From a virus, in the IMG/VR virus record IMGVR_UViG_3300025369_000085, positions 1 to 20,101 of that record: 20,101 nucleotides of DNA; one strand, 5' to 3'. The notes beneath the pieces are model-generated. The model saw only the letters and a program-made list of their open reading frames with translations, was not told the origin of the DNA and made no database searches. This document shows, piece after piece, positions 3,876 to 20,007 of the stretch; position 1 is the stretch's first letter, and every line of letters begins with the position of its first letter. Position numbers and translations under genes: made by a program.

Positions 3876-4751
3876 TTAACCCCTTGCTACGCTAAGTACA
3901 TCCCATTTGGATGTAGCTGCATTATATTTGCATCCAATGTAGTGAGTGTTGCTAGCTGTTGTAGCAGTTGGAAGTGTGACTTGTATCACATTGTACACAG
4001 AGTTCCATGCTAATGTTTGGCTAGTTCCGTTATCACGAATCCTAATTATTAATGTTTGCCCATCTGTTGGTGTACCAGTTGGAGCGGCTATCGTAGCACC
4101 TACAGCTAATGCAGATACGATATACATGGTTGAAGTAAGTGTAGGAGTAATAGTAGCACCAGAAGTTGTTGAAGTCGGAGTTACTGCTACAGCATTATTA
4201 AAAGTGGTAGCACCGTTAGCTGTTAAAGCTCCTGTAAGGGTTGTAGCTCCAGATACAGATAGTGTTCCAGATACTGCAGTGTTACCTAATGTAGGAATTG
4301 TAGCTGTACCAGATACAGTAATAGAGTCAGTGGTAAATCCACCAGAGTTATTCATTCCTCCAGTGTTAGATAATCCAGTGTGGTAACCAGCTTGAGTGTG
4401 CTGTGCTAAGTAAGAGCTTTGGAAATCATTCCATAGGTTAGCAGTAATCCACATTGTTACGTTAGCGTTTGATGTGTGAGCCTGTGCTGTAGTGCCGTCT
4501 TTACCTCGTAATAGGTTTCCAATATTAGTTGAAGTAGTTACTACACCTGTAACAACTTCTTTAAGAGTAGGTGTAGATGCTCCAGATACAGGGTCGGTTG
4601 CGTCAATAACTAAAGTAACAGCAGTTCCTGTTGGTAACCCTGTTGTTGAAGCTACCGTCATACTTGTATCACTTGATAGCATTGAGCTAGTCAAAGCGGT
4701 TGCAAAGTTCGGTGCTGCGTTTCGTACTAAATCTGTATTTGCTGCTGCCAT
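3876..4751 (-). CDS. Tail fibre-like protein (291 aa)
   Basis: The 291-residue protein has three regions. Residues about 20-108 form a beta domain (SMTVASTTGLPTGTAVTLVI, LLRGKDGTTAQAHTSNANV) that also appears inside the nozzle-like protein. Residues 140-190 are short Ser/Thr/Gly strand repeats (VSGTLSVSGATTLTGALTAN) typical of trimeric fibre shafts. Residues about 205-291 form a C-terminal domain (GQTLIIRIRDNGTSQTLAWN, HYIGCKYNAATSKWDVLSVA) of a kind common at fibre tips. AGGAGAAATAA before the start is an excellent SD. The gene has its own promoter/hairpin leader. It probably attaches through its N-terminal domain and contributes to receptor contact, which is inferred from architecture. Confidence 0.83.
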   Translation of the reverse strand: MAAANTDLVRNAAPNFATALTSSMLSSDTSMTVASTTGLPTGTAVTLVIDATDPVSGASTPTLKEVVTGVVTTSTNIGNLLRGKDGTTAQAHTSNANVTMWITANLWNDFQSSYLAQHTQAGYHTGLSNTGGMNNSGGFTTDSITVSGTATIPTLGNTAVSGTLSVSGATTLTGALTANGATTFNNAVAVTPTSTTSGATITPTLTSTMYIVSALAVGATIAAPTGTPTDGQTLIIRIRDNGTSQTLAWNSVYNVIQVTLPTATTASNTHYIGCKYNAATSKWDVLSVARG

Positions 4752-4762
4752 TTATTTCTCCT

Positions 4763-4793
4763 AAATAAAAAGGTACTCCGACAAAGGAGCACC
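4763..4793 (-). terminator. Terminator-like hairpin upstream of the fibre gene
   Basis: On the minus strand, GGTGCTCC pairs with GGAGTACC across a TTTGTC loop (8 bp, one G-U), followed at once by TTTTTATTT. This is a classic intrinsic terminator shape. It lies 29 bases downstream of the -10 element and 11 bases before the fibre gene start, so it could attenuate readthrough or act as a 5' hairpin on the fibre mRNA. Confidence 0.75.
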
Positions 4794-4821
4794 TGTAACT
4801 CTGTACTGAGTGTTCTTAGTT

Positions 4822-4830
4822 ATTATATCA
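4822..4830 (-). promoter_or_regulatory. Extended -10 promoter element before the fibre gene
   Basis: The minus strand reads TGATATAAT, a perfect TGn-TATAAT extended -10, 22 bases past the stop of the nozzle-like gene. No good -35 is seen at 16-18 bases (best TGTATT), consistent with an extended -10 promoter that does not need one. It is the same element as in three other gaps. Confidence 0.65.
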
Positions 4831-4852
4831 CAAATAAGGTTAAAAATACACA

Positions 4853-7255
4853 TTAGTTTAAAATCCAAGCATTTGGGTCTTGTGTAGGTATCATAAAACC
4901 TTTAACTACTAATTGGTTAAATGTGTATTGAGCATCTAATGTATTTGTATGAATCTCCGCTTCCCAGTTGTTAAGTAATTTAGTTACACGCACACGTTTC
5001 TTATCAGCTAATGTTGTAACTTGCAATGGTGCTGTAGCAACAGCTGAAAAAGCTAATGTACTAAATGCAAAACTAGAAAATCCTACGTTGTCTGCTGAAC
5101 TACCAGCTACATACGAATACGTGGCTAAATTAGATAACGGTGCATTTTTAGTTGTACCAGAAAACGCTAACTGTATTTGTCCTTGTGGTGAACCTAATTC
5201 CCAATATGCGTATTGTATGTTTGCAAACTTAATGTGGTCTGGGCTAACATGTATAAGACCAGTTTGAATGTGAGTATCAAAAGGCATACCATTATCTCCA
5301 GCAAAACTAGAACTTATTTCAATCAAAAAATTGCCGTTTACTGGATTAGTTTGTACAGCTAGTAATCTAAGGATTCCTGAATTGTCTGTGTACTTAAAAA
5401 AATGATTAACACCAAAATCAAAAGCATATGGATTCCAGTTTTGTTTCGCTGTATCGTATACAAATATTTGATTGTTAGTTGTAGCTCCATATGGGACTGA
5501 CCAAAAGATTTTTTTATCAAACTCTATACCAGCCATACCAGGAATTGCACTATATGTAATTTCTTTACAGTCTGGACGAATTACCAAACTTATTTCATTA
5601 GTAGCAAGCACGTTATAAAGCGTTTGTACGCTACCATTTGAATAAAAGCCTGCAGGTCCAGGTGAGAAATAGTAAACGTTCTGTAGGGTCTGTACAACGC
5701 TCCTAGGGGCTGTAGTTCCAAACGATTGCATAGCTTGAACAAGTGTCGGTACAGTTACTAGTATATTAGATATGTTTTGAGCCGTTAATTGACAATGCCA
5801 TACTGAACCATACCCTGAAGGTTCTGATAATAGAATAGTGGTCATAGGCGTACCTTTACCATCCCTAAATTGTCCTACCCATCTAGGCGTGTCTGCTGTA
5901 CCAGGTTTAATATCTACCCAACCACCACCAACAAAAGGTGAAAAACCTAGTGCGTATTGAAGCTGTGCTCCTGCCCAATAAAGTCGGTTAGGATTGTTAG
6001 GGTCACCTATAGCCCATAATCTGTTATCAGATATAGCCATCCAATTAAACTTAGGTGCATTTGTAGTGTCTGTAATGGGTGCAATAATAAAATCATTTAC
6101 ATCATGGTCGCCATAATCTGTGTAACTTACTGTAGCTCCTCCAGAATATGTACCTGGTTGTGCAATGTTGTCTAAATAATATGCTACACCTGCTGAAGTG
6201 TCTGCTAAATAAAGATTGTAACCTATTACGTTTGAGTCATTAACAGCATTCCATGTAAGGTTTATGTATGTTGATGTAGAATAAGTGGAAGTGTTTGTGT
6301 TCCACCAGTTGGTACGTGCAGGAATAGAATATGCAGTAGGAAATGCAGCTGGTGCTGTTTCTCCATTTTTAGTTACTGCAGTTACATAATAATTAAGGGC
6401 ATTTTGTGTAGTAGCTGTGTTATGTGTTGTAACACCACTACCAAATCCTAAAGGTACACCAGTAGGTGAATAGTTAGTTGTTGCAGGAATAGTTGGTGCT
6501 GCTACTGCACTTATTGATACCCAACTAAATGGTGAAGTTGTAAGGTCTACATAACCAAAATTATCTACACCATTAGTTACTAATACTTTGTTTTGGTATT
6601 GAAGCATTTGAGTCCATACTTGGTCACCAGATTTAACTAATGTGTATTGTGTGTGCGTTGCAGCCGTAGTTCCATTAATTGCTCGTTTAACTGTAAGTGT
6701 AGTTGTACCAGCTCCTGAGGTAACATACATTTGTTCATTATCTATAGTTATGTAGTAATTGTTTGAACTAGGTAATGCTGAAGCTGTTGTTACAGTTATT
6801 GTAGTTGCAGTAGTGGTTGTTATAGCTGAAGCAAGTGTAGTTGTGTACTGGTTAGTAGATACAAAATGATTACCGCTTCCTGTAGTTGTAGTCGAGTTTG
6901 TTACTGTTGTCCATGGGCCACCATCTTTTGAATATTTTAAAATACCATTATCAACAATTATTATATATGTTGTTGCTTTACCTGTAGTTGTATTAAATGT
7001 AGCACAATCAACTATTCCAGTTACTGGACCTGTATAAGCTGCTCCATAGTTGTTAGAACCCCAGCGTGTAGCCCATACACCGTCTTGTGTCATCATTAAG
7101 TTTTTAGCTTGAACAACTGCACCTAAAGGAAGTCGGTCTTCATTAACAAATGAAATTACACCAGGTCTCCAGTTAGACTGGTTACCTTGTCCACCAATAA
7201 TTTGCTCGTAACTTTTAATGTTACCTGCTTTAACTTTTGTAGTTTTACTTGGCAT
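4853..7255 (-). CDS. Tail nozzle/hub-like beta protein (800 aa)
   Basis: The 800-residue length matches the T7 gp12 nozzle (794 aa). The N-terminus has RPGVISFVNEDRLPLGAVVQ followed by KNLMMTQDGVWATRWG, the 'collect parameters, then strip of blades' pattern of phage nozzle and stabilisation proteins. Blade-like repeats follow (YIIIVDNGILKYSKDGGPW, LVTNGVDNFGYVDL, WMAISDNRLWAIGD, NQIFVYDTAKQNW). Residues about 140-207 are an extra beta module also present in the fibre-like protein, apparently inserted between two propeller strands. A fibronectin-like segment lies at about 285-390 (NYYVTAVTKNGETAPA to YTDYGD). The start is preceded by GGAGG overlapping the adaptor stop. Position directly after the adaptor supports the assignment. 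Confidence 0.8.
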   Translation of the reverse strand: MPSKTTKVKAGNIKSYEQIIGGQGNQSNWRPGVISFVNEDRLPLGAVVQAKNLMMTQDGVWATRWGSNNYGAAYTGPVTGIVDCATFNTTTGKATTYIIIVDNGILKYSKDGGPWTTVTNSTTTTGSGNHFVSTNQYTTTLASAITTTTATTITVTTASALPSSNNYYITIDNEQMYVTSGAGTTTLTVKRAINGTTAATHTQYTLVKSGDQVWTQMLQYQNKVLVTNGVDNFGYVDLTTSPFSWVSISAVAAPTIPATTNYSPTGVPLGFGSGVTTHNTATTQNALNYYVTAVTKNGETAPAAFPTAYSIPARTNWWNTNTSTYSTSTYINLTWNAVNDSNVIGYNLYLADTSAGVAYYLDNIAQPGTYSGGATVSYTDYGDHDVNDFIIAPITDTTNAPKFNWMAISDNRLWAIGDPNNPNRLYWAGAQLQYALGFSPFVGGGWVDIKPGTADTPRWVGQFRDGKGTPMTTILLSEPSGYGSVWHCQLTAQNISNILVTVPTLVQAMQSFGTTAPRSVVQTLQNVYYFSPGPAGFYSNGSVQTLYNVLATNEISLVIRPDCKEITYSAIPGMAGIEFDKKIFWSVPYGATTNNQIFVYDTAKQNWNPYAFDFGVNHFFKYTDNSGILRLLAVQTNPVNGNFLIEISSSFAGDNGMPFDTHIQTGLIHVSPDHIKFANIQYAYWELGSPQGQIQLAFSGTTKNAPLSNLATYSYVAGSSADNVGFSSFAFSTLAFSAVATAPLQVTTLADKKRVRVTKLLNNWEAEIHTNTLDAQYTFNQLVVKGFMIPTQDPNAWILN

Positions 7256-7263
7256 TTAACCTC

Positions 7264-8085
7264 CTATATGTAGCCTGTACCATTGTTGGTCCAGAAACCA
7301 CTATTGTAACGGTTTGGCAAATAAGAACTATAACCAAGTAATCCGTCTACATCTTTTATGTAATCGTCTTGGAAATTGGCACTCATTTCTTGTCCCATAC
7401 GCATGTTTAATAAAGAATAATTAGCTTTGTCTTCCATAATTTGGTAAAGAGTAGTATTAAAGTTGTTAGCAGAAACTTGTGCAGATACTTTGTAAATAAT
7501 AAAGTTAGGGTCGCTCATTTCAGGAATATCATAAGGGTTTTGCAATACTCCTGAAGTTGTTACGTCTGGTATGTTAGCAAACTTGTAATATCGGAAAGAT
7601 ATAGTAGCACCTATTTCAGCACTACCAACTTGTGGATACCAACCTAATACTAAGTTGTAACCTGTTACAGGATTACCTGTTACATAAAACTCTGGTTGGT
7701 TATTTCGTGGATTAAGTTCTAAATTAGGAAGTTTTTGTAGTTTAAAAGAACGTACGTTTTCACTAGCGTTGGTAGAACCAGGGTATGTAAGCCAAATAGT
7801 TCCACCATACATAAACTTAAAATCACTAGGAAGTGGAATGTTTATTGGTGTAGTTGTAGTAGAAGGAGTAGCAGCTATAGTGTAATAATTTGGTTGATTT
7901 ACCCAAAGTTCATCCCAAATAACACCACGCTCGTTTTCCCACGTAGGAATAGCTAGTGTTCTAATCATGCCCACATAAATGTTGTACTCCTGTGAACCTA
8001 CGGCTGGAGGAGTTGGGTCATTCAACGTTTGTAGTTGTATGGCATTAATAATTTGTTGATATGTCATTGGGCTAGTGTTAGCCAT
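7264..8085 (-). CDS. Head-tail adaptor protein, SU10-adaptor/T7 gp11-like (273 aa)
   Basis: The 273-residue protein starts MANTSPMTYQQIINAIQLQT, a helical N-terminus typical of podovirus ring adaptors. A beta section follows (WENERGVIWDELWV, IPLPSDFKFMYGGTIWL, YNLVLGWYPQVGSAEIGATI, SFRYYKFANIPD). The C-terminal half has helices (NFIIYKVSAQVSANNFN, KANYSLLNMRMGQEMSANFQ) and a Tyr/Asn-rich tail likely to contact the nozzle. Size and the adaptor-then-nozzle order match SU10-type adaptors and T7 gp11/gp12. Sequence similarity is not strong enough by eye to be certain. TAGGAG overlapping the preceding stop is the SD. Confidence 0.75.
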   Translation of the reverse strand: MANTSPMTYQQIINAIQLQTLNDPTPPAVGSQEYNIYVGMIRTLAIPTWENERGVIWDELWVNQPNYYTIAATPSTTTTPINIPLPSDFKFMYGGTIWLTYPGSTNASENVRSFKLQKLPNLELNPRNNQPEFYVTGNPVTGYNLVLGWYPQVGSAEIGATISFRYYKFANIPDVTTSGVLQNPYDIPEMSDPNFIIYKVSAQVSANNFNTTLYQIMEDKANYSLLNMRMGQEMSANFQDDYIKDVDGLLGYSSYLPNRYNSGFWTNNGTGYI

Positions 8086-8094
8086 GGTTTACTC

Positions 8095-8457
8095 CTATAG
8101 GTAAGTTATGGTAATTGTGTCACCTGATGGTACTACTACTGTTAAACCTGTATTAAACTTAGCATCAAAAGTAAATGTTACAGCTTGAGCACCAGTAGAA
8201 AATTGTGCAATTAAAGTTCCTGAACCAGTTAAACTATCATAAATAGAAATTGGACTAGTACTTTTAGCACCAAGAATTGATACTGTGTGTAAGATTCCAG
8301 GACCAGTTTTTAAAAAATATGTACCTGAAGTTAAATAACTATATGAACATTCAGTAGCATTTAATACTTCATAATCTCCTGTTGTATTGTTTTGTACATC
8401 AACAACTCTTTGTGTGTTGTCTTGTATTGATTGTGGGTTTGTAACTGTTATTGCCAT
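8095..8457 (-). CDS. Small beta-sandwich virion protein, possible decoration/fibre protein (120 aa)
   Basis: The 120-residue protein consists almost wholly of beta strands. Residues about 40-120 (SGTYFLKTGPGILHTVSILG, SPISIYDSLTGSGTLIAQFS, FDAKFNTGLTVVVPSGDTIT) match a pattern I recognise from many marine and aquatic phage virion proteins: LKxGPGxLHxVxVxx, IxIYDxxxGSGTxIA, DxxFxTGLTVV, DITVxY. Its function is not established. Head decoration or tail-collar roles are both plausible. The start has a strong AGGAG SD nearly identical to that of the fibre gene. It is the first gene after a promoter/hairpin cassette, suggesting high-copy expression. Confidence 0.75.
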   Translation of the reverse strand: MAITVTNPQSIQDNTQRVVDVQNNTTGDYEVLNATECSYSYLTSGTYFLKTGPGILHTVSILGAKSTSPISIYDSLTGSGTLIAQFSTGAQAVTFTFDAKFNTGLTVVVPSGDTITITYL

Positions 8458-8476
8458 TTATTTCTCCTTTTACATT

Positions 8477-8503
8477 AAAAAAGACATCTCAGATAGAGAT
8501 GCC
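8477..8503 (-). terminator. Terminator-like hairpin upstream of the 120-aa gene
   Basis: Minus strand GGCATCTC pairs with GAGATGTC across TATCT (8 bp, one G-U), followed by TTTTTT. This is an intrinsic terminator shape, 28 bases downstream of a strong promoter and about 20 bases upstream of the next start codon. Confidence 0.78.
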
Positions 8504-8531
8504 TCAGCTATGCTGTGATGCAATCCCTTGT

Positions 8532-8561
8532 ATTATACCATTTTTTTCTAATAATTGTCTA
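8532..8561 (-). promoter_or_regulatory. Strong sigma70/sigmaA-type promoter
   Basis: Minus strand -35 TAGACA (8556-8561, 5/6 to consensus), 18-bp spacer, -10 TATAAT (8532-8537) with an extended TGG in front. It begins one base past the stop of the 1625-residue gene. Predicted start of transcription is near 8525, giving a leader of about 20 nt before the hairpin at 8477-8503. Confidence 0.75.
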
Positions 8562-8562
8562 A

Positions 8563-11500
8563 TCATTTTTGTTTAAAACCTTTAACTTTGGTTCGCTTTA
8601 CTTTAATTCTTCTTTGATGTGGTGGTCGTTTTAATTTGACGTTAGTTTTTACACGAACAGGTTTAGGTTTTCTTATGATTACACGTTTTTGTTTAGTGCT
8701 ACTACCTACTGCCTTACCTACTCCTGTATAACCTGATGGTAAGTTTCCACCTGATAAATAAGCATATTGGCCTTCTGCATTTTTACCTATGTCGTAGTTA
8801 GCTAATGAAGCTATACCTGCCATAGTACGCTGGTTAGTTTCTGTGTTCATGTTAAGTAAATCACCTTGTGATGCTGTTGGTACAGATGGGTTTACGTACA
8901 TGTTTTCTGATAAACCTTTAGATGTTTCATACAATGCAACGTCTGCAAGATATTGCCTAACATCAGCGTTGCTGTTTATCATTTGGCTTCTTGCTGCTTT
9001 AGATTCTGAATCAGTACCTTTAGGCATAGCATTTAGTAAAGCTGTAACTCTATCGCTAGCTTGTGGATAATTTTGTAGTGCTTCTTGACCACTTGCTAAT
9101 CTAACTTGATTAATATGTAGTGCCTGCTTATCAAAATAAGGATTAAGGACGTCCATATTCTGTGATAAGAAATAAGATTTCATGCCAGGGTCTGACATAC
9201 CATTATATATGTTTAATATTTGTTGCGTCTTAGAATCAGGTGTTATTGGTAATAATGGGTCTGGTGCTTGTGGGTGATTATTCCAATAATCATTAATACC
9301 ATTTTGGTTATACCCTAATGATTTAAGGTACGTGTTCATATTGTTTTCGTAATTTGAATTAAATGTAATCTTATCTTGCTCGTATTGTTTAAGCCATGGG
9401 TTAGCTTGTAACATACCAGGTTTTTGTGGGTCTCCTGCTACAAGTGCATCATATTCCATAGCAGCTAATGGTTTAGGTACAGGTCGTCCACCAGTATCTA
9501 CACCCTGACCATTAAGTTTGAATAGTGGTCCAGCAGGGTAACCTGAATCTTTTTGATTGCGTGCGTAATCAATTAAGAAAGCTAATGATAATACACGTTG
9601 TGTTGGGTCATTTGGATTAACCTCTGTGTAGTTCTTTAATTTAGCTTGGTCATTTAATGGGTCATAAGGTACAAGTACTTTTTTACCATTAATGTCCATA
9701 GTATTTTGTGGGTGTATAGCTAAGTATTTATTGTATTCATTTGGTCCGTAGTTTTCTGGGAATGCACTTAAATCTACACCTAATGCTTTGGCTGCTGACT
9801 GTAGGTTTGTGTAATTACCATTCTTAACATCATTTAATAGATTTGCTGTTTCTGTAAAGTTTTTGCTTGCTTCTGATGCAATTCGTACATTAAAGAAACT
9901 TGCTCCTACTTTTGTCGCTCCACCTTTACCACCTGTTACTTCTTGAGCAGTTTGTGCAGGGGAATAAATAGATGAAATGTATTTTCCAATTTCACCAGGT
10001 ACTTCTTTAACAGCACGTCCTGGACGATTCATAATATCGTAAGTATTAAGTATTGGTCTGCCTAAACTATCTTTGTTATTTAATACATTTATCACACCTT
10101 GAGTACCGATAGCAGGTGTAAGATTTTTAGCTGCAACTTGTGCTGGTGTTTTATTACCTTCAACCATGTCATATATATCGCTCGGTAATGAGAATATACC
10201 TGAACGTATTGCTGATGCGTTTTTACCAAATATTTTTTTAGAAAGGTCATCTGCAGCTGGGTAAGCAACAAACATAACTAATCCAGCCATAATTAATCTA
10301 TCGAATGCTTCTGCTTTATTAATTATAGAACTATCTTTTGAAACTATGTCTCTGACTTGGTTAGCCCATGCTTTAAGAACATCATAGTGATAAGGTGTAA
10401 ATATAAAAAGGTTTGGGTTACCAATAAAGTTTTTTAAGTTTCTACTACCTAATACTCTTGCAGGCAACCGATAATCAGGCATAACTTTGTAAGTTTCTCT
10501 AATAGCTTGTTCAAACCCTTGGCCTTCCATTCTTCTTTCTAACACACGCTGTAAAGTAAGCATGTCACCAATGTTAAATGCTACGCTATGGTTAAGTTTG
10601 AGAATCATTTTACCTAGGTACATTGGATTAACGTAACCTAGTGCGTCTGCTACTTTTTGAAGTACGGTAGGGTCTTTAAACTGTCGGTCCATCATATTAA
10701 CTATACTTCTAGTTAGTAGTTCTCGGTTAGTAGCTTGCAATGCACTGCCATGACGTAACTCATTTCTATATAGTTCGTCTTTTTTCATTACAGATACAAT
10801 AGCTTGCACACCACTTTTAACTAATCTTCCATACGATGATGGTATTAATAACCTTGTAAGTCCTCTATCAAATACTGAGAATGCTGCAATGTTAAGTGGG
10901 TGAGTAAGTGGTTTAAAGAATATAGCGTCTCTAAATAAACGGTTTATTATGCCAAATGCTTTTAATGGGTCATTAGACATAACTTTTGTAAAATCGTCCA
11001 GTATATCGGCTGTGTGTGGCTCAAAAAAGTAACCTTGGAACTGTGGTGCATCCACAACTCTCCACTTAGGTGGCTTTGGACCATCACCCATTTTTAATGC
11101 TACATCTTTAAAACTAGGGTCTAGTTTCCATTGGTTGATTAATTGTGTGGCTCGCTCAGTACTTCTGGTACTTAGGTAATCTAACGCTGCTGAAACAATA
11201 GGGTTTTTGTAATACTCGGTGTTAGTGTGTTGTTCAATTTCTTTTGCTGTAGCTTCTTGAATCTGCCAACTTTTACCAGTTTTATCTATAAACTCACCTT
11301 GTTGTAATTGCGGTCTACCAACAATACCCCAAGTTTTTTGTAAAGATGGTTTAATATTTAATACTTGTTTGGTAGTTTCTTGTTCACCTAAGAACTGCTT
11401 AAACTCTTTGTAAAGTGTTGGAGCTTTCTCTTTAAATATATCAGGTGAACGCATCCATGCTTGGAATAATACTGCTACCTTTTCTTCGGTGCTATGCAAA

Positions 11501-13440: not shown

Positions 13441-13448
13441 TGTTCCTC

Positions 13449-14552
13449 CTATTGGTTAAATATGTTTGAAAGTCCTGCTCCTGGGTTGAAGTTAGGAGTT
13501 GGTAATTGTTCTGCAGCTTGTGGCTTAGTAGGTGATGCTGTCATTGCATAAGAATTGGCATTTGTAGTACCTTGAGACAACGCGTTAGCTAAATATTGTT
13601 TACTATTAGTTATTGTTTGGTCTAAATTGTTCAACTGGTCTAATGCTGTACCAACTAAATCTTTTCTTGTGTAATATAAAATATCTCTTGCTTGTTGTGT
13701 AGTAGCTGTACTTATTGCATTGTCTATATTAGCTAAATCTGTTTGTAACTTTTCTTTTATAGTCTGAAGCCCTTGAGTTTTTTGGTCTGAAACAATTTGC
13801 TGTGCATCTTGGCCTTGCATAATCGCTGAATCAATTTGTTTTTTAATTAATGCTGTTTGTTCTGCCGCATTTAAATTAATTGCTGATTGAGCCATAGCTT
13901 TTTGTCTACCAAACGCATATTCGCCCATTTGAACTGCACTGGAACTACCTGCACCCATATTACCCAATGAGTTTTGAAAACTTTGATTACCACTTCTTAT
14001 TTGGTCTGCTAATTGAGCTAGTGAAAGTTGTTGCGAAGCTGCTGTATTTGCATTCTGTTGACCATAGTAATTTACGTTGCCTTGAGTTGTGTCTGCTGCT
14101 TGTTTAGATTCATCGCTATAATATTTAGCTGCGTTAGATGTATCAACTCCATAGTTTGCTACAGCCGTATCTCGTTGGCCATATAAGTTGTTTATATTAT
14201 TCTGTGCACCTTTTGTAATTGCATCAAGCATTTGTGAATTACCAGTATTTGATAGCCCACTTGCGTTTCCTGAACCAGCTGTTGATGTTGCAGGTGTTGC
14301 AGTCCCAGTTAAGTTTTGATATTGACTATAAGCATTTTTGTTTTCATTAATAAGGTTTGGGTCGGTAGTTCCTGTTACTTGTCCTTGGTTATTTACATAA
14401 CCCAACCCACCATTACTACCAATTAATGATTGTGCATTACTATCACCACCTGAGGTTGCCAAATAATTTAAATACCCACGATAATCAGCATTGCCTACAT
14501 AAGGTAGATTACCCCCTGGAGTCGCTACTGAATTATAACTTACATCTGCCAT
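13449..14552 (-). CDS. Gln/Ala/Asn-rich internal virion protein, probable ejection protein (367 aa)
   Basis: The 367-residue protein has a Gly/Asn-rich N-terminal 110 residues, then long helices rich in Gln, Ala and Asn (IKEKLQTDLANIDNAISTAT, QARDILYYTRKDL, LDQLNNLDQTITNSKQYLAN) and a Pro-containing tail. A Gly/Ser-rich segment, LGNMGAGSSSAVQMGEYAFG (about 197-216), breaks the helices. There is no membrane span or enzyme motif. Gln/Ala helical proteins directly before a giant internal protein are typical of podovirus ejection proteins (T7 gp14, P22 gp7/gp20 by position and composition, not by homology seen here). It has its own promoter/hairpin leader and AGGAGAAAATA SD, and is followed after 8 bases by the 1625-residue gene. 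Confidence 0.75.
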   Translation of the reverse strand: MADVSYNSVATPGGNLPYVGNADYRGYLNYLATSGGDSNAQSLIGSNGGLGYVNNQGQVTGTTDPNLINENKNAYSQYQNLTGTATPATSTAGSGNASGLSNTGNSQMLDAITKGAQNNINNLYGQRDTAVANYGVDTSNAAKYYSDESKQAADTTQGNVNYYGQQNANTAASQQLSLAQLADQIRSGNQSFQNSLGNMGAGSSSAVQMGEYAFGRQKAMAQSAINLNAAEQTALIKKQIDSAIMQGQDAQQIVSDQKTQGLQTIKEKLQTDLANIDNAISTATTQQARDILYYTRKDLVGTALDQLNNLDQTITNSKQYLANALSQGTTNANSYAMTASPTKPQAAEQLPTPNFNPGAGLSNIFNQ

Positions 14553-14565
14553 TATTTTCTCCTAT

Positions 14566-14604
14566 AAAAGAAAAAGAGCCATGCCTTATTAAGGGCACAA
14601 CTCT
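14566..14604 (-). terminator. Terminator-like hairpin upstream of the ejection-protein gene
   Basis: Minus strand AGAGTTGTGCC pairs with GGCATGGCTCT across CTTAATAA (11 bp with three wobble pairs), followed by TTTTCTTTT. It lies between the -10 element and the SD of the 367-residue gene. A second small hairpin, CTTTG/CAAAG, lies just upstream in the leader. Confidence 0.75.
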
Positions 14605-14632
14605 TTGATTTCAAAGTGATTTGTACCATTAC

Positions 14633-14661
14633 ATTATATCAGAAACGATAGTTTCGGTCAA
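14633..14661 (-). promoter_or_regulatory. Near-consensus sigma70/sigmaA-type promoter
   Basis: Minus strand -35 TTGACC (14656-14661, 5/6), 17-bp spacer, extended -10 TGATATAAT (-10 hexamer at 14633-14638). The TGA stop codon of the 85-residue gene is itself the TGn of the extended -10. Predicted transcript start is near 14626, before the hairpin at 14566-14604. Confidence 0.78.
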
Positions 14662-14896
14662 TTTTCTTTGCTTGTTCACCTATTTTTTCTGCTAATGCTG
14701 TGTCACCATTACGAATAGCTACTGTCATTTTTTCTCTAAGTCTAGCTATTGATGGATGTTTAGATTGGTCACGTATAGCATACATAACTTCTTCAGCTTT
14801 TTTACGTTCTTGGTCTGATATGTTAGGATTATTGGTTTTTTCTTGCATCTTTAAATAATCCATCTGTCTAGATGGGTCTAGATTTTTAGGATTCAT
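14639..14896 (-). CDS. Small charged helical protein (85 aa)
   Basis: The 85-residue protein begins MNPKNLDPSRQMDYLKMQEK. It is rich in Lys, Glu, Arg and Asp, and reads as two or three helices (DQERKKAEEVMYAIRDQS, ARLREKMTVAIRNGDTALAE). There are no Cys, signal or membrane segments. The start is just past the TAG TAA stops of the 107-residue gene, with GAAGGAG as SD. Its promoter-overlapped 3' end marks the end of the head transcription unit. The role is unknown. Position after the capsid gene would suit a head-completion or packaging accessory protein, but nothing in the sequence proves it. Confidence 0.78.
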   Translation of the reverse strand: MNPKNLDPSRQMDYLKMQEKTNNPNISDQERKKAEEVMYAIRDQSKHPSIARLREKMTVAIRNGDTALAEKIGEQAKKIDRNYRF

Positions 14897-14899
14897 TTA

Positions 14900-15223
14900 C
14901 TACGCTCCTTCAGGAAATATATAACCTAACTCTTTAAGTCGGTCTCTTACATCCCAAGGTTCTATGTTTAATACTTGGGCCATTCTATCTTCGTTAGCGT
15001 CTAATGCTTCGTGGTGAATAGCTAGAAAAGCATCTACTTGAGTTTCTAGTTCTATGTCTTTAATAGTTTCTTTAGCTATTGCTATTAAATCTTTTGATTC
15101 TAATTCTTCGTAAAGCTCATCTATTGTTAGTTGTGTAATTAGTTTTGCTCTTGGTGCATCACCATCTATGTTAGCTGGTTTCATTATTCCTGATTCGGAA
15201 GATGTTTTATTAATTGTTGCCAT
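14900..15223 (-). CDS. Acidic helical protein downstream of the capsid gene (107 aa)
   Basis: The 107-residue, acidic and mostly helical protein has a disordered N-terminus up to about residue 25, followed by LTIDELYEELESKDLIAIAK, IELETQVDAFLAIHHEALD and a final NIEPWDVRDRLKELGYIFPE. The C-terminal WDVRDRLKELGY segment looks like a small helix-turn-helix-like fold, but no DNA-binding family can be assigned. AAGGAG before ATG is a strong SD. The gene lies just behind the capsid terminator, so its expression is probably lower than that of the capsid gene. Candidates include a head-tail connector or a regulatory protein. Confidence 0.75.
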   Translation of the reverse strand: MATINKTSSESGIMKPANIDGDAPRAKLITQLTIDELYEELESKDLIAIAKETIKDIELETQVDAFLAIHHEALDANEDRMAQVLNIEPWDVRDRLKELGYIFPEGA

Positions 15224-15240
15224 ATGTTCTCCTTAATTAA

Positions 15241-15274
15241 ATTAAAAAGGGTAGAAGTAATTAAACTCCTACCC
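15241..15274 (-). terminator. Rho-independent terminator after the major capsid gene
   Basis: Minus strand GGGTAGGAG pairs with CTTCTACCC (9 bp, one G-U) across TTTAATTA, followed by TTTTTAATTT. It starts 22 bases past the capsid stop and has no -10 element between the stop and the stem, unlike the other four hairpins here. Partial termination would favour capsid over downstream genes. Confidence 0.85.
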
Positions 15275-15296
15275 CTTATGCGTAACGGAAGTTCTA

Positions 15297-16181
15297 TTAA
15301 GAAATAGAAGCCTGAGTTACAACATTTATGACCCAGTTGCTGTTCAAGACAACGCTTGCGAACTGACCTGCCCATGAAATTACATGGAATCGTTCTGCAG
15401 GGTTGTTTGAATCTGCACCAGTGACAATGTAGAGCTTAGGAGCATCTAGTTGGTTGTCGTATACACCAAATGATTCTCGTCCGTGGATGTAATTGTCATA
15501 AGTTACTGGAGTACCAGCGGTTGTGTAACCTTGGTTAGTAACTAAGAAACGTACACCGTAAAGTGCACCAATTTCACCAGCGTATAGAGCTTGAACATTT
15601 GAGTATGCAGCAGCACTTTGCCATGTGGTTGTAAGGATTAGGTCATATTCAGTTTGAGGCTGAATCTTTCCAATCCATCCAAATGTACCATCGTACATTA
15701 GGGCTTTGTTCTCTTTAAGAGTTGCTACAGCCTGAGCTACGTTAGCAGCTGTTAGGTTAGCACCAGTTGTAAGAGCAGTTGCACCACTGTGCAAAGCGTT
15801 TCGTACTAGAGCATCCAATGTTTCACCCATGTTCTGAGCTACAACATCAATTTTCTCTTTGTCTCGGTCATCAATGTCTACTGTACCCAAGAGGCGTGAT
15901 ACCTGTACTGAGTTTGCGTATTCAGCCAAAGTTACTGTAACTTGGTCGTCTACAAGTGAAACAAATGCAGGGTTGGTACCTTCAGTTGATAGAGCTGTAG
16001 TAGCTAAAGCTAGTGGGCGGAATCTGTTAAAGATTACTTGCTTTCCAGCGTTGCCTTCTAAGGCTCGTAACTGAGCACCTTCTTGATGTACTAACATAGC
16101 ACGTGCTCTTTCTAGGAAACGTCTTTCGTAGTAAACTGCGACTTCGTTTGATAGTGAGCTAGTAGTATTTAATACTGCCAT
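15297..16181 (-). CDS. Major capsid protein, N4 gp56 family (294 aa)
   Basis: The 294-residue protein matches the N4-gp56 capsid pattern: an N-terminal SLSNEVAVYYERRFLERARA helix, VHQEGAQLRALEGNAGKQVI, FNRFRPLALATTALSTEG, then VTVTLAEYANSVQVSRLL and a long helix (VAQNMGETLDALVRNALHSG). Later strands include IGKIQPQTEYDLI, ALYGVRFLVTNQGY, and a C-terminal WAGQFASVVLNSNWVINVVT. It is shorter than N4 gp56 itself (about 400 residues) but typical of the family core. The scaffold gene directly precedes it and a strong terminator follows, with TAA TAG tandem stops. AAAGG lies 9-10 bases before the ATG. It is the most confidently assigned structural gene here. Confidence 0.93.
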   Translation of the reverse strand: MAVLNTTSSLSNEVAVYYERRFLERARAMLVHQEGAQLRALEGNAGKQVIFNRFRPLALATTALSTEGTNPAFVSLVDDQVTVTLAEYANSVQVSRLLGTVDIDDRDKEKIDVVAQNMGETLDALVRNALHSGATALTTGANLTAANVAQAVATLKENKALMYDGTFGWIGKIQPQTEYDLILTTTWQSAAAYSNVQALYAGEIGALYGVRFLVTNQGYTTAGTPVTYDNYIHGRESFGVYDNQLDAPKLYIVTGADSNNPAERFHVISWAGQFASVVLNSNWVINVVTQASIS

Positions 16182-16200
16182 TGATTTATACCTTTATTTT

Positions 16201-17022
16201 TTAACGAACTCTCTTTGAAGCAAAGTATTGTTCCATCTCTGAAGCTGTCATTTGTTCAAACGGTTTCTGACTCTTTGATGGTGAGTTAGAAGGTTTAATC
16301 GCTGACTTCCCCTTAGATGATACTTCTTGATTATTCGCACCTTTTGGTTTTGTATTTGACGCAGAATCCAATAATCGTGTTAAAGGTTGTAGGAACTTTG
16401 TAAAGCTAAGTGTAGGGTCTTTGGAATATATTTCACTGTATGATTCAGTGATTTCATGTACCAAGTCCTCATCATAATCTTCGTTATTAGGGTTGAGTAC
16501 AGAATATTTTTGTTCTGCTTTCTCTATTTCTTGAGCTCTTTTTTCAACAGCCTGTTGTCTAGTCAAGTTAGATTCCAAAACCTTTGCGGTCGTTTGCATT
16601 TTCAGGTCTACTATCTGCGATGCGGCATTAATGATGTCAGCTTTGATTTGCTCTGGGCTAACTTCTGCCATCATCGAGTAGTCAGGCAACTGAACACTTG
16701 ATGGATTTACTTGAGTATTAGACAGCGTCTCTTGGAGATTGCTGGGATGTTGTAAAGCATCTTCTAATTCCCTAATTTTACTTGTTAATTCGCTAATTCG
16801 CCTCTCTGCACGAGAAGGTCTTTGTCGAGCCCCATCACTACTGTCTACACCGTCACTCCCATCACTGGAGTCGGAATTACTATTACCCTCATCAATACCA
16901 TTATCGACATTGGCGTTAGATGGTTGTAGTGTTTCGGCACTTGCATTTGAACTTACATCTGATGACGAATCTGATGCTCCACCAGCAAGGGTGGTGTTTT
17001 GCGTCTGTTCTGAATCAGCCAT
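16201..17022 (-). CDS. Capsid scaffolding protein (273 aa)
   Basis: The 273-residue protein has a Ser/Asp/Asn-rich, acidic disordered N-terminal 65 residues (NSDSSDGSDGVDSSDG), a short basic switch RQRPSRAERR, coiled-coil helices at about 75-95 and 125-175 (AERRISELTSKIRELEDALQ, QAVEKRAQEIEKAEQKY), and a Lys/Ser-rich C-terminus ending MTASEMEQYFASKRVR. Acidic-disordered, helical and basic-tailed layout immediately before the capsid gene is characteristic of phage scaffolds, whose basic C-terminal helix binds the coat protein. AAAGGAG precedes the start. It lies downstream of a GC-rich structured RNA stretch. Confidence 0.85.
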   Translation of the reverse strand: MADSEQTQNTTLAGGASDSSSDVSSNASAETLQPSNANVDNGIDEGNSNSDSSDGSDGVDSSDGARQRPSRAERRISELTSKIRELEDALQHPSNLQETLSNTQVNPSSVQLPDYSMMAEVSPEQIKADIINAASQIVDLKMQTTAKVLESNLTRQQAVEKRAQEIEKAEQKYSVLNPNNEDYDEDLVHEITESYSEIYSKDPTLSFTKFLQPLTRLLDSASNTKPKGANNQEVSSKGKSAIKPSNSPSKSQKPFEQMTASEMEQYFASKRVR

Positions 17023-17053
17023 GGCTGCTCCTTTCTAATCACACTTGTTAAAG

Positions 17054-17112
17054 GTTCGTGCGTCACCTGGGGGTGATGTCCCCCAACGCCTGCTCATCTA
17101 TTTGGGACGAAC
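17054..17112 (-). promoter_or_regulatory. GC-rich structured RNA element upstream of the scaffold gene
   Basis: The 105-bp gap before the scaffold gene is GC-rich unlike its surroundings. On the minus strand GTTCGT (17107-17112) can pair with ACGAAC (17054-17059), GCGT (17086-17089) with ACGC (17060-17063), and GGGGG (17080-17084) with CCCCC (17069-17073). A competing hairpin TCACC/GGTGA around CCCA would break the G5/C5 stem. There is no U-run, so it is not a plain terminator. Possible roles are translational control of scaffold/capsid, mRNA processing or a protein-binding site. This is inferred from pairing by eye only. Confidence 0.4.
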
Positions 17113-17128
17113 AGGAGTTGAAGGGCAT
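17063..17128 (-). CDS. Possible 21-codon leader ORF before the scaffold gene
   Basis: ATG at 17126-17128 shares one base with the TAA of the preceding gene (TAATG) and reads 21 codons (MPFNSCSSQIDEQALGDITP then R) to TGA at 17063-17065. No SD of its own is evident beyond AAAGCAAG, so it would depend on translational coupling. It runs through the structured RNA element, so ribosome passage could melt those stems. It may equally be chance. Confidence 0.2.
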   Translation of the reverse strand: MPFNSCSSQIDEQALGDITPR

Positions 17129-17382
17129 TATCTTGCTTTCAAAATAGGCTCTCCATTCTCTTTAACACCAACAAGCATTTTTTCCGTGCCAATCCAAGCA
17201 ATCGTATGCTGTTGTGTACAACTCCTACAGATAAGATATGGGCCTTGCTGAATAGGGGAATGATTAACATTATGCTTGGCTTCATCTCTAAGTCTTTCGT
17301 TAATTTTGTTAAAATCTGGGAATTGTGCAGGTTGGGCATTAATTATCTCCTGTTTAATTTCCTTGTTGGCTTCTTCGTCCAT
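17128..17382 (-). CDS. Small protein with CxxCxxxH motif (84 aa)
   Basis: The 84-residue protein has a charged helical N-terminal half (MDEEANKEIKQEIINAQ, FNKINERLRDEAKHNV), then a compact C-terminal domain, YLICRSCTQQHTIAWIGTEK, containing C52-x2-C55-x3-H59, and a terminal beta hairpin (MLVGVKENGEPILKAR). A CxxC plus His could be half of a zinc site or a metal site completed by dimerisation. GAGGAAAAG precedes the ATG, which lies 29 bases inside the upstream gene. The function is unknown. Position between portal and scaffold suggests a role in head assembly or packaging. Confidence 0.78.
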   Translation of the reverse strand: MDEEANKEIKQEIINAQPAQFPDFNKINERLRDEAKHNVNHSPIQQGPYLICRSCTQQHTIAWIGTEKMLVGVKENGEPILKAR

Positions 17383-17734
17383 CTTTAATCTTTTCCTCTA
17401 CCTGTGCTACAGCTGTTTCAACAGTTAGAATTATTTTTTCTAGTTCATCTGCTATTGCATTGGTGGTTATGGTAAGTCTTCCAATTTCTTCAAGTGACTT
17501 TGTAGGTATTGCTTGCTGTAATGGTTTACCAGAACGATACGAGTTAATCGTATTCTCAAAGTCTTTTTTAATCAGTACCCATCCTGGGTGGTCATTAAGT
17601 GAAGCATACACTTCAATTATGTTGTCTTCTTCTTGTTCTATTTCTTGGTTTTCTACTACTTCAGGTGGATTGTAAAGTGTGTCATCGAACGATACTCGCA
17701 TACTCCCCCTTAGTGCTGATTGTCCTTTGTTCAT
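17354..17734 (-). CDS. Acidic hypothetical protein downstream of the portal (126 aa)
   Basis: The 126-residue protein has a mildly basic N-terminus (MNKGQSALRGSMRVSFDDTL), an acidic stretch (VVENQEIEQEEDNIIEV), a small alpha/beta part (YASLNDHPGWVLIKKDFENT) and a long C-terminal helix (TNAIADELEKIILTVETAVA, QVEEKIKDGRRS). There is no membrane segment or known motif. The start lies one base after the portal stop, with GGAGGAAGG in the portal's last codons as SD. It overlaps the following gene by 29 bases. The role is unknown. It may be a portal- or scaffold-associated accessory protein. Confidence 0.78.
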   Translation of the reverse strand: MNKGQSALRGSMRVSFDDTLYNPPEVVENQEIEQEEDNIIEVYASLNDHPGWVLIKKDFENTINSYRSGKPLQQAIPTKSLEEIGRLTITTNAIADELEKIILTVETAVAQVEEKIKDGRRSQQGN

Positions 17735-17735
17735 C

Positions 17736-19916
17736 TTACCTTCCTCCCATTTGTGCCCTTACTTGTGCCATAGCCTGTGCAATCTCTGGGTCACCTATAC
17801 TTGTAGGACCTTGTCCCATAGTTTGTCCCTGAGACGTTTCTGGGGCTTCCTGAGGCTGTTGCATACCCTGAGGTGGCATTTGACCCATCTGTGCTTGTTG
17901 TGGGGCTACAGCAGGCTGCATTCCACTTTTAGCTTGCTCCATTGCAATCTTAGCTTGTGTTTCCATTTGAAGTTTTTGTTGTTCGTATTGTAAGAAATCT
18001 TGTGGATTAATGTTAATACCAGCTTGTTGAGCCATTTGAGCAGCTCCAGCAGGCGGTAAATCTTTAATATCTATAGTCTCACGTAGACTTTCTTGTGGTC
18101 CGCTTTGCTGTTGTTGGCCTGGCATTTGTTGCTGACCTTGTTGAGGTATTGGTTTAAGTAGTTGTTTGACGTCTCTTATGCCACCAGTTTGCAGAAGTTC
18201 TTTGTAATATTCGCCATAATCAAATCTTATTCCAGCTTGCTGTAATTGTGCGTCCATAATTCCAGGATTTGCCATCAATGTTTGGTGGATTTCCATTAAT
18301 TGTGCGTGCTGCTCTTCTTTTTCTTGTTTATATGTAGAACGAGCCTTAATTTTGTAAACATAGCCCTTTTCATTTTTAATTCGGCTAGGTTTTAAGGTAA
18401 TTTTTGCAGTTCTTCCGTCTTTAGATACCTTGATTGCGTCTTTTACGTCTGGGTAACTCTCAGCAATTTGTCCAATTTCTTCATTAAACATGTAAAGTTC
18501 TATAGGTTCATCGTGTTCTACATCGTTAATTAAGCTAATCATACCGTTAAATAGCTCTTCAATAGCTTTGTCCATGAAGTTAGTGTCAATATCATCACGT
18601 GTGGATTGACTAGCATTCTGAGCTTGAATAGCTTGTGGAGTTTTACCTTCGGTTGGAGTATTGGATTCACCACTAGCTCTCGTGGTAGTTTGACCTGTTA
18701 TGTTACTCATTATGCCCTGAAGCATTTGGAATGTGAGATTGTTGTTGCCATCTACATCTGGGAACTGGTGGTGACTAATATCGTTAGGGTTAGACACAAG
18801 CCACTTAGCACCAGGCTGGAATCTAACAGTCGGCATGACTACATTGCCGTTTAGTACTTTAATTGGTGGGTAGGTTCGTAGCTTAAGCCCATCAACTAAT
18901 AAGTTTGTAACAGTGTCAATAGCGTATTGTGCGTATCGTCCTTTTTCCATGTCACCAAGCCCAATAATGGAATCAAGTGTAGGCATAGCATATTTAACTA
19001 CTACAGGAATCTTTCCGTTTTGATGTGGGTTAGGAATGTTTCTAATAACTAAATTACCAAAGTCAGGTAGGAAATCTATCCAGCGTCCGTCATCACCAGC
19101 TTCGTACTTAGTAACAACTTCAATTTCACCTGTGTCAGTAAATACCGCTCGTCTTCGGTATTGAAACATTGGGTTGTGTCGCAAGTAATCATTGTAGCTA
19201 GAAGGTCGTGTACCACCACGTTTAGTCTTTTCAAGTACCTGTGCAATAGCATCAAGGTCATAATCAGTTACACCTTCTTCAACTAATTCCTCAAGGTATT
19301 CTCGGCTAATGTAGTTGGAAATAAACACAAAGTCACAGTTATGAATTGAATATCGTCCCTGTTGTGGAAAGAAGTTTCTAATTGGAACTAACCAACAATC
19401 AGGTCCAACGTAGTTTTGTGTATATGTCCAGTCGTAACACATAGCCATTGAGCCATATACGTTTGAGTACATGTCCCACATGTATAGCTTAGTCTTTAAA
19501 TCAAACTGGTAATTAGCGTTAGGGTATATCCACTTTTCAAGCACGAGGTCCATTAATTGACCTTTACCTTGGTTTTGTAAACCTAAAGCATTAACTGTAC
19601 CCTGTGGTAAGTTAGCCATAACTCTACCAGCACGCTCTATAACAATAGTAGAAAGTGAGCCTTCACTTAAACGAACTTTAGCATTGTCAGGGGTTCTGCC
19701 TTGGACAAATAAGAGGTCTTCATATTCATCCCAGTCAAGCGACATGTAACGTAAAGCATTTTGGGCAGTTTGAAATTGAGATGCTAACATCCCACGAAGA
19801 CGAGGGTCACCACCGATAGTTCGGTCGGCTTCTTCTAATTGGTCTACGACAGTATCGTAGTCTTTGCCTTTTTCAGCTTTTATATCGTTTAGTAATTTTG
19901 GTTGTTTTTTGTCCAA
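17736..19916 (-). CDS. Portal protein, P22/SU10-like size (726 aa)
   Basis: The 726-residue protein is almost the same length as P22 gp1 (725). It starts with TTG at 19914-19916. AAGGGAG lies 8 bases upstream, and the next in-frame Met is only at residue 43. The N-terminal half carries portal-like features: RLRGMLASQFQTAQNALRYM, WDEYEDLLFVQG, LSTIVIERAGRVMANLPQGT, YMWDMYSNVYGSMAMCYDW and WLVPIRNFFPQQG. The central DSIIGLGDMEKGRYAQYAID and NLLVDGLKLRTYPP lead to a helical clip/stem region with NITGQTTTRASGESNTPTEG. The C-terminal 150 residues are Gln/Met/Pro-rich with poly-Gln runs, compatible with a flexible barrel or core extension. It is followed by scaffold and capsid genes in classical order. 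Confidence 0.88.
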   Translation of the reverse strand: MDKKQPKLLNDIKAEKGKDYDTVVDQLEEADRTIGGDPRLRGMLASQFQTAQNALRYMSLDWDEYEDLLFVQGRTPDNAKVRLSEGSLSTIVIERAGRVMANLPQGTVNALGLQNQGKGQLMDLVLEKWIYPNANYQFDLKTKLYMWDMYSNVYGSMAMCYDWTYTQNYVGPDCWLVPIRNFFPQQGRYSIHNCDFVFISNYISREYLEELVEEGVTDYDLDAIAQVLEKTKRGGTRPSSYNDYLRHNPMFQYRRRAVFTDTGEIEVVTKYEAGDDGRWIDFLPDFGNLVIRNIPNPHQNGKIPVVVKYAMPTLDSIIGLGDMEKGRYAQYAIDTVTNLLVDGLKLRTYPPIKVLNGNVVMPTVRFQPGAKWLVSNPNDISHHQFPDVDGNNNLTFQMLQGIMSNITGQTTTRASGESNTPTEGKTPQAIQAQNASQSTRDDIDTNFMDKAIEELFNGMISLINDVEHDEPIELYMFNEEIGQIAESYPDVKDAIKVSKDGRTAKITLKPSRIKNEKGYVYKIKARSTYKQEKEEQHAQLMEIHQTLMANPGIMDAQLQQAGIRFDYGEYYKELLQTGGIRDVKQLLKPIPQQGQQQMPGQQQQSGPQESLRETIDIKDLPPAGAAQMAQQAGININPQDFLQYEQQKLQMETQAKIAMEQAKSGMQPAVAPQQAQMGQMPPQGMQQPQEAPETSQGQTMGQGPTSIGDPEIAQAMAQVRAQMGGR

Positions 19917-19921
19917 AACAA

Positions 19922-19946
19922 ATACTCCCTTAAATATTAGGAGTAC
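19922..19946 (-). promoter_or_regulatory. Hairpin enclosing the portal SD
   Basis: Minus strand TACTCC pairs perfectly with GGAGTA (6 bp plus one G-U) across an 11-base loop, followed by a U-rich TTTGTTTT. The second arm contains the GGGAG SD of the portal gene, so folding would hide the ribosome site. It resembles the CAGGTGCTCC/GGAGTACC hairpin before the fibre gene. Confidence 0.55.
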
Positions 19947-19977
19947 CTGCTTTGCCTAGGCTCAGTACTTAGCCCAC

Positions 19978-20007
19978 ATTATATCAGCTTGTTGCCATAT
20001 TCGTCAA
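19978..20007 (-). promoter_or_regulatory. Near-consensus promoter before the portal gene
   Basis: Minus strand -35 TTGACG (20002-20007, 5/6), 18-bp spacer, extended -10 TGATATAAT (hexamer 19978-19983). It lies inside the last codons of the upstream gene, whose TAA stop overlaps the -10. Predicted start is near 19971, leaving a leader of about 25 nt before the SD-enclosing hairpin. Confidence 0.78.

Follow-up and report, generated by a model that had tools for sequence, protein, structure and literature searches.

The window analyzed here, a whole virus contig of 20,101 bases, is A+T-rich and carries its virion genes on the minus strand. The capsid gene product matches a major head protein family; the product taken as the portal protein gave a single tblastn match, a weak one, whose target is annotated as 'head to tail connecting protein'. 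Four gaps on this strand, before the portal gene (leader A), a 367-aa gene (leader B), a 120-aa gene (leader C) and a 291-aa gene (leader D), each hold a promoter, a hairpin, a Shine-Dalgarno (SD) sequence and a start codon, in the order originally predicted (Table 1). The extended -10 motif TGNTATAAT, expected in these gaps as TGnTATAAT, is present four times in the record (4822-4830, 8532-8540, 14633-14641 and 19978-19986), always on the minus (coding) strand and only in the four named gaps, with no fifth copy. The count by itself is unremarkable: 1.93 copies are expected, and 14 of 100 shuffled sequences reach four. Judging from the sequence, the placement of all copies in gaps and on one strand, together with three promoter sites matching 11 of 12 positions, is not easily put down to chance. 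These three, promoters A, B and C, are the sole sigma70-type sites of that quality in the 20 kb, and their -35 boxes (TTGACG, TTGACC and TAGACA, at 17-18 bp) are those the prediction had listed. Two promoters share letters with stop codons: the TAA stop of the gene upstream of leader A sits inside TATAAT, and the TG of promoter B comes from the TGA stop of an 85-aa gene.

Table 1. Positions of the four promoter-leader cassettes and associated features in the 20,101-base window
Feature	Position	Strand	Details
Promoter A (before portal gene)	19978..20007	-	TTGACG, 18 bp, TATAAT with TG; overlaps upstream gene end; kept in relatives
Leader A anti-sequestering fold	19942..19969	-	AGUAC-UGA-GC(CUAGGCAAA)GC-AG-GUACU
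Leader A OFF hairpin	19914..19954	-	CAAAGCAGGUACUCC...GGGAGUAUUUGUUUUG; buries SD 19929-19925 and TTG start 19916-19914
Gene after leader A, portal	17736..19916	-	726 aa, TTG start; weak tblastn match
Fifth hairpin, gap between major capsid and 107-aa genes	15238..15277 (hairpin 15277-15246)	-	terminator-like, without promoter, conserved in relatives
Promoter B (before 367-aa gene)	14633..14661	-	TTGACC, 17 bp, TATAAT with TG
Leader B antiterminator fold (predicted)	14594..14627	-	GGUACAA-AUCA-CUUUG(AAAU)CAAAG-AG-UUGUGCC
Leader B terminator	14563..14606 (hairpin 14606-14573)	-	13-bp stem AAAGAGTTGTGCC/GGCATGGCTCTTT, U-rich tail
Promoter C (before 120-aa gene)	8532..8561	-	TAGACA, 18 bp, TATAAT with TG
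Leader C antiterminator fold (predicted)	8500..8522	-	UGC-AUCA-CAGC(AUA)GCUG-AG-GCA
Leader C terminator	8475..8505 (hairpin 8505-8481)	-	GAGGCATCTC/GAGATGTCTT, T6
Promoter D (before 291-aa gene)	4822..4830	-	TGATATAAT, without clear -35
Leader D antiterminator fold (predicted)	4790..4812	-	CAC-UCA-GUA(CAGAGU)UAC-AG-GUG
Leader D terminator	4762..4794 (hairpin 4794-4771)	-	AGGTGCTCC/GGAGTACCT, T-rich tail

The closest relatives of this phage are uncultured IMG/VR contigs from freshwater. Our comparison set includes five longer relatives of 31 to 43 kb (G001, G002, G004, G005 and G007), among which G004 and G005 are near-identical and not independent of each other. The nearest matches in genome assemblies are MAG contigs (one labelled Patescibacteria), with a capsid identity of about 50% or less; these are perhaps phage contigs binned along with those genomes. 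In the freshwater relatives, the four cassettes are found again at matching gene borders, and both the -10 box and the hairpin are conserved within the clade, the test that had been set for the prediction. In L015, L018 and L020, cassette C, likewise downstream of the gene for the large internal protein, stands before the 273-aa homologue instead. A relative of the 120-aa protein is also encoded upstream of the portal gene in some phages (L028, 2180-2533; L029, 2532-2885), with TGTTATAAT before the gene and without a hairpin.

A hairpin is present in all four gaps, as predicted; the expected U-tailed, terminator-like form is found in leaders B, C and D but not in the portal leader, where the U-run is broken. 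A G+C-containing stem followed by a U-rich tract, the mark of an intrinsic terminator, is seen in hairpins B, C and D and in a fifth hairpin downstream of the capsid gene. These four predicted terminators are also the four best terminator-like sites on the minus strand. In leaders B, C and D, as in their relatives, the terminator stem begins at a nearly constant spacing of 25-27 nt from the -10 box. In leader B, all 13 pairs of the terminator are retained in four relatives; the variation among the four sequences does not beat that of shuffled ones, and the leader contains an invariant stretch of 16 nt. The capsid-gene gap (15224-15296) holds a terminator without a promoter, so that terminator-bearing gaps differ from the cassette set. 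This hairpin provides a natural comparison case for the four cassettes. The near-identical leader ends do not look like a feature of the cassettes: AGGAG...ATGGC also precedes the 107-aa gene, where there is no promoter cassette, and thus looks like a common ribosome-binding pattern.

For the hairpin of leader A, a translational lock is a better reading than a terminator. Its 3' arm contains the SD sequence (GGGAG), its foot extends to the TTG start, its broken U-run leaves it short of an intrinsic terminator in the window, and its pairing is kept in relatives, as CAAAGCA/UGCUUUG or, in L033, CAACGC/GCGUUG. In L033 both strands have changed together: the hairpin folds at -8.4 kcal/mol with its own partner strand versus -2.1 to -3.8 kcal/mol with those of others. 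We judged this conservation by an explicit check of strand partners; a count of OFF-hairpin pairs on the MAFFT alignment was dropped since the 3' arms were out of register. The L009 version of this hairpin has a run of U at its end and could act as a terminator and an SD lock at once. Among about 60 more distant portal relatives (30-36% identity), a terminator adjoins the portal start only in L071, L082 and L107; a genome scan added one further distant relative, L067. In L071 (a contig shared with L023; about 3900-4015), a portal gene of 34% identity follows a promoter, a hairpin and then a terminator that has the SD in its loop and 3' arm and the ATG directly after U7, a promoter-then-lock arrangement outside the clade. 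In L067 (about 340-450, in an assembly labelled Chloroflexi), the portal gene follows TTGACA/TATTAT, a terminator with T7 and a GTG. Between this promoter and terminator, GGTAGCTAAGTGGTAGCCAATGCCGCTCTAATGCGG is reminiscent of tRNA D and anticodon arms; ARAGORN found no tRNA in the stretch, and no relevant Rfam family was found for it.

Between the -10 box and the hairpin, all four leaders can adopt a second fold that starts 5-9 nt after the -10 box and hence close to the expected transcript start. We found it by unconstrained folding of the first 30-44 nt of each leader. The element spans 22-34 nt and has a common geometry: stem 1, an internal loop in which an A faces an A, and stem 2. The hairpin that follows, whether terminator-like or sequestering, takes its 5' arm from the 3' strand of stem 1, so that the two folds are predicted to be mutually exclusive. 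The geometry comprises an outer stem of at least 3 pairs and an inner stem of 2-5 pairs, separated by an internal loop of 2-4 by 1-2 nt; the signature adds an A ending the 5' side of this loop and an A beginning its 3' side. The A-facing-A geometry is present in 22 of 27 leaders, including all four cassettes of the window; the signature is absent from the B leaders of L009 and G002 and from the A leader of G007. In shuffled versions of eight leaders, the geometry arises in 7-12% and the signature in 1.3-3.0%. The product of rates for four window leaders out of four with the signature is about 2e-7, a guide only, as the signature was named afterwards: both descriptor and signature were drawn up after seeing the leaders, and their rarity is therefore no independent test.

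A descriptor combining a -10 box, the element and an overlapping hairpin was run on sequences of related and distant phages, 1.65 Mb when both strands are counted. It returned 17 places, 11 of which are late cassettes of G001, G004 and G005; a twelfth (cassette C of G005) was missed where the sequence was split at a piece border, and those of G002 were missed because their -10 boxes deviate. None of the other six places has a U-tail, and an SD-like word lies near the hairpin in two only. The non-structural parts of the genomes contain one descriptor place, with neither U-tail nor SD. Beyond the clade, relatives of the 291-aa gene lack the cassette, except for L041, which has a promoter and a terminator without the element.

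Single-leader folding statistics are mostly weak in thermodynamic significance, so that the case for the element rests on recurrence and covariation. Leader A is represented by nine distinct sequences, down to 55-62% portal identity. Four pairs of stem 1 show double-sided changes, 97.2% of cells are paired, and none of 500 shuffles scores as high; slid controls are far lower, near zero for the nearest slides. The outer stem takes the forms AGUAC/GUACU, AGUAG/CUACU, AGCAC/GUGCU, AGUAU/AUACU and GAUAC/GUGUC. Independent relatives are few for leaders B, C and D; among them, CAA/UUG in the stem of leader B corresponds to UAA/UUA in L012, and in leader D of L036, CAC/GUG has become AAC/GUU and GUA/UAC has become GUC/GAC. 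In G002, the element is present in leaders C and D with inner stems that differ (GUGU/ACAC and GAGC/GCUC), and the hairpin of these leaders bears the SD and no U-run: the same element joined to the other output. A covariance model of leader A, run on 0.94 Mb, ranked cassettes C and D of the same phages next after leader A (E 0.3-1). We rejected it as proof of a shared element, as its alignment of D crosses hairpin 2 and uses another register of stem 1. A nucleotide search with leader B in phage records gave weak partial matches only, with no evident relation.

In folding predictions for 19 leaders, the hairpin (OFF fold) is the full-length minimum in 17, lying 1.3 to 16.6 kcal/mol below the element (ON fold), which points to OFF as the default; no energy gap separates the two folds in leader C of L012 and leader D of G002. 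When the ON fold is forced, the predicted openness of the start rises from 0.03 to 0.97 in the portal leader and from 0.03 to 1.00 in leader C of G002.

The reading that we favor, with some reservation, is that the late gene blocks are switched by four bistable leaders sharing one RNA element and having two kinds of output. It builds on what can be read from the sequence: the anatomy of the leaders, their conservation, the mutual exclusion of the predicted folds and the covariation in leader A. Promoter activity, termination, switching and a common signal are what we infer beyond these. Each late (virion) gene block would have its own host-type promoter, whose transcript would open with a bistable leader. 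The two-stem element, near the 5' end, would fold first as the RNA emerges; the ON fold can precede the hairpin because it is made first. As long as the element persisted, its 3' strand would be unavailable as the 5' arm of the next hairpin: transcription would continue in leaders B, C and D, and the SD and start would stay open in leader A. Should the element yield to the more stable hairpin, transcription would terminate or the start would be hidden. Blocks would thus be off or partly off by default unless something held the first fold. The shared element would be the site for a common signal, most likely an RNA-binding factor of the phage or the host, that would switch on all four blocks together, late in infection.

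That the same fold lies before four genes suggests that one signal could control them all together, and the common internal loop suggests, in the model, a common binder. The original prediction had transcripts from each promoter meeting a hairpin at once, and the four leaders possibly controlled jointly. The alternative folds, the common loop and the covariation in leader A speak for this part of it, whereas the four hairpins are not all terminators. The fuller version, a phage-wide RNA regulon in which one factor would read the A-facing-A element and release termination in three leaders and translation start in one, as a late-gene switch, is in our estimate possible rather than probable. A phage antiterminator had been proposed to act on the four leaders; searches with Pfam and PHROG profiles among about 60 sampled non-structural proteins of G001, G002 and G004, records that may be incomplete, found no antiterminator-like protein, and a host protein could still be the factor. 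One candidate late regulator, a conserved protein of 223 aa encoded last in the early operon, was dropped as glycosyltransferase-like. A helix-turn-helix-like protein of 68-70 aa (L044, 6389-6595, plus strand; L042, 8607-8819, minus strand), about 60% identical between G001 and G004, is a possible regulator; its match to a sigma-factor family is weak (E 0.014). G001 also encodes a GroEL-like protein (Pfam Cpn60; L042, 4715-6328, minus strand), and a GroES-like protein is present among the scanned early proteins.

The result of the factor search also speaks for a rival explanation: the leaders may be passive attenuators, in which the two folds compete unaided and a fixed fraction of readthrough is set for each block with no factor involved. 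Such attenuators would tune the ratios of virion proteins and block readthrough from upstream, and a terminator lacking a promoter, such as the one downstream of the capsid gene, is in keeping with tuning of this kind. The ability of the ON fold to form first likewise speaks for unaided competition. However, passive attenuators have no need for the same internal loop in four leaders with differing stem sequences, and we consider this explanation possible but less likely than the favored one.

The put RNAs of phage HK022 offer a precedent for control without a phage protein, acting through the zinc-binding domain of the RNA polymerase beta' subunit. One of them, putL, is located immediately downstream of PL and needs no dedicated protein; these RNAs measure about 70 nt and have two stem-loops (PMC9378689). 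In the present case as well, the phage promoter is directly followed by a structured RNA that would favor readthrough, and a phage protein was looked for among the sampled proteins and not found; a 5' fold might bind RNA polymerase in cis and render it resistant to its own and later terminators. In contrast to put, which acts on distant terminators through RNA polymerase, the element is only 22-34 nt long and shares a strand with the very hairpin it would block; furthermore, in the portal leader and in G002 this hairpin would control access to the SD and not termination. We regard put-like antitermination as improbable.

Promoters B, C and D might also be small RNA genes, with terminated RNAs of 50-60 nt as their product and the blocks relying mainly on readthrough from upstream. 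A strong promoter, a short structured RNA and an intrinsic terminator are what such genes would present, and the invariant stretch in leader B would suit them. Yet the portal leader has the element without a terminator, and where a terminator is present the element overlaps it in a switch-like manner; we give this explanation little credence.

At lambda pR', an early terminator comes after the promoter. Control of the kind exerted by lambda Q (PMC7171158), with a phage protein loading at promoter DNA and passing the leader terminator while the RNA folds are incidental, shares with our leaders a late promoter closely followed by a terminator but seems very improbable: Q binds promoter DNA, whereas the conserved, covarying signal is here in RNA and in four units instead of one; the -35/-10 spacers of promoters A, B and C (AATATGGCAACAAGCTGA, GAAACTATCGTTTCTGA and ATTATTAGAAAAAAATGG) adjoin or lie in unrelated gene ends and, by reading only, hold no evident common Q-binding element; and no Q-like family match was obtained among the sampled non-structural proteins. 

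Bistable leaders have counterparts elsewhere. In the published model of the RAT (ribonucleic antiterminator) systems, a protein stabilizes a small RNA element that shares sequence with a rho-independent terminator at the terminator's foot and thereby excludes it (PMC9981650). As with the RATs of BglG and SacY, the predicted antiterminator fold overlaps the foot of a terminator recognizable by its stem and U-rich tract, and the two predicted folds are mutually exclusive. Unlike in these systems, four virion gene blocks of a single phage are each preceded by the element, which lies almost at the 5' end of the transcript and is also found over an SD-sequestering hairpin; no BglG-family protein was detected with Pfam or PHROG profiles among the sampled non-structural proteins of G001, G002 and G004. 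Riboswitches and ribosomal-protein leaders likewise join one sensing fold to a terminator or an SD-sequestering hairpin; here, however, the genes are phage structural genes, and neither the whole window nor six loci of relatives matched Rfam 15 at the curated threshold. No description of this leader arrangement was found in the open-licence literature. Its layout would work like that of RAT antiterminators, with the difference that the element would operate a translational lock as well.

The usual account of phage late genes has them activated by a new sigma factor or polymerase, or by one antiterminator acting at a single site. Each leader is shorter than 90 nt, which makes the proposed switch testable with reporters, without growing the phage. 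If the reading is true, a short RNA element before four virion gene blocks, with two outputs, would add to the known means of timing or balancing late genes.
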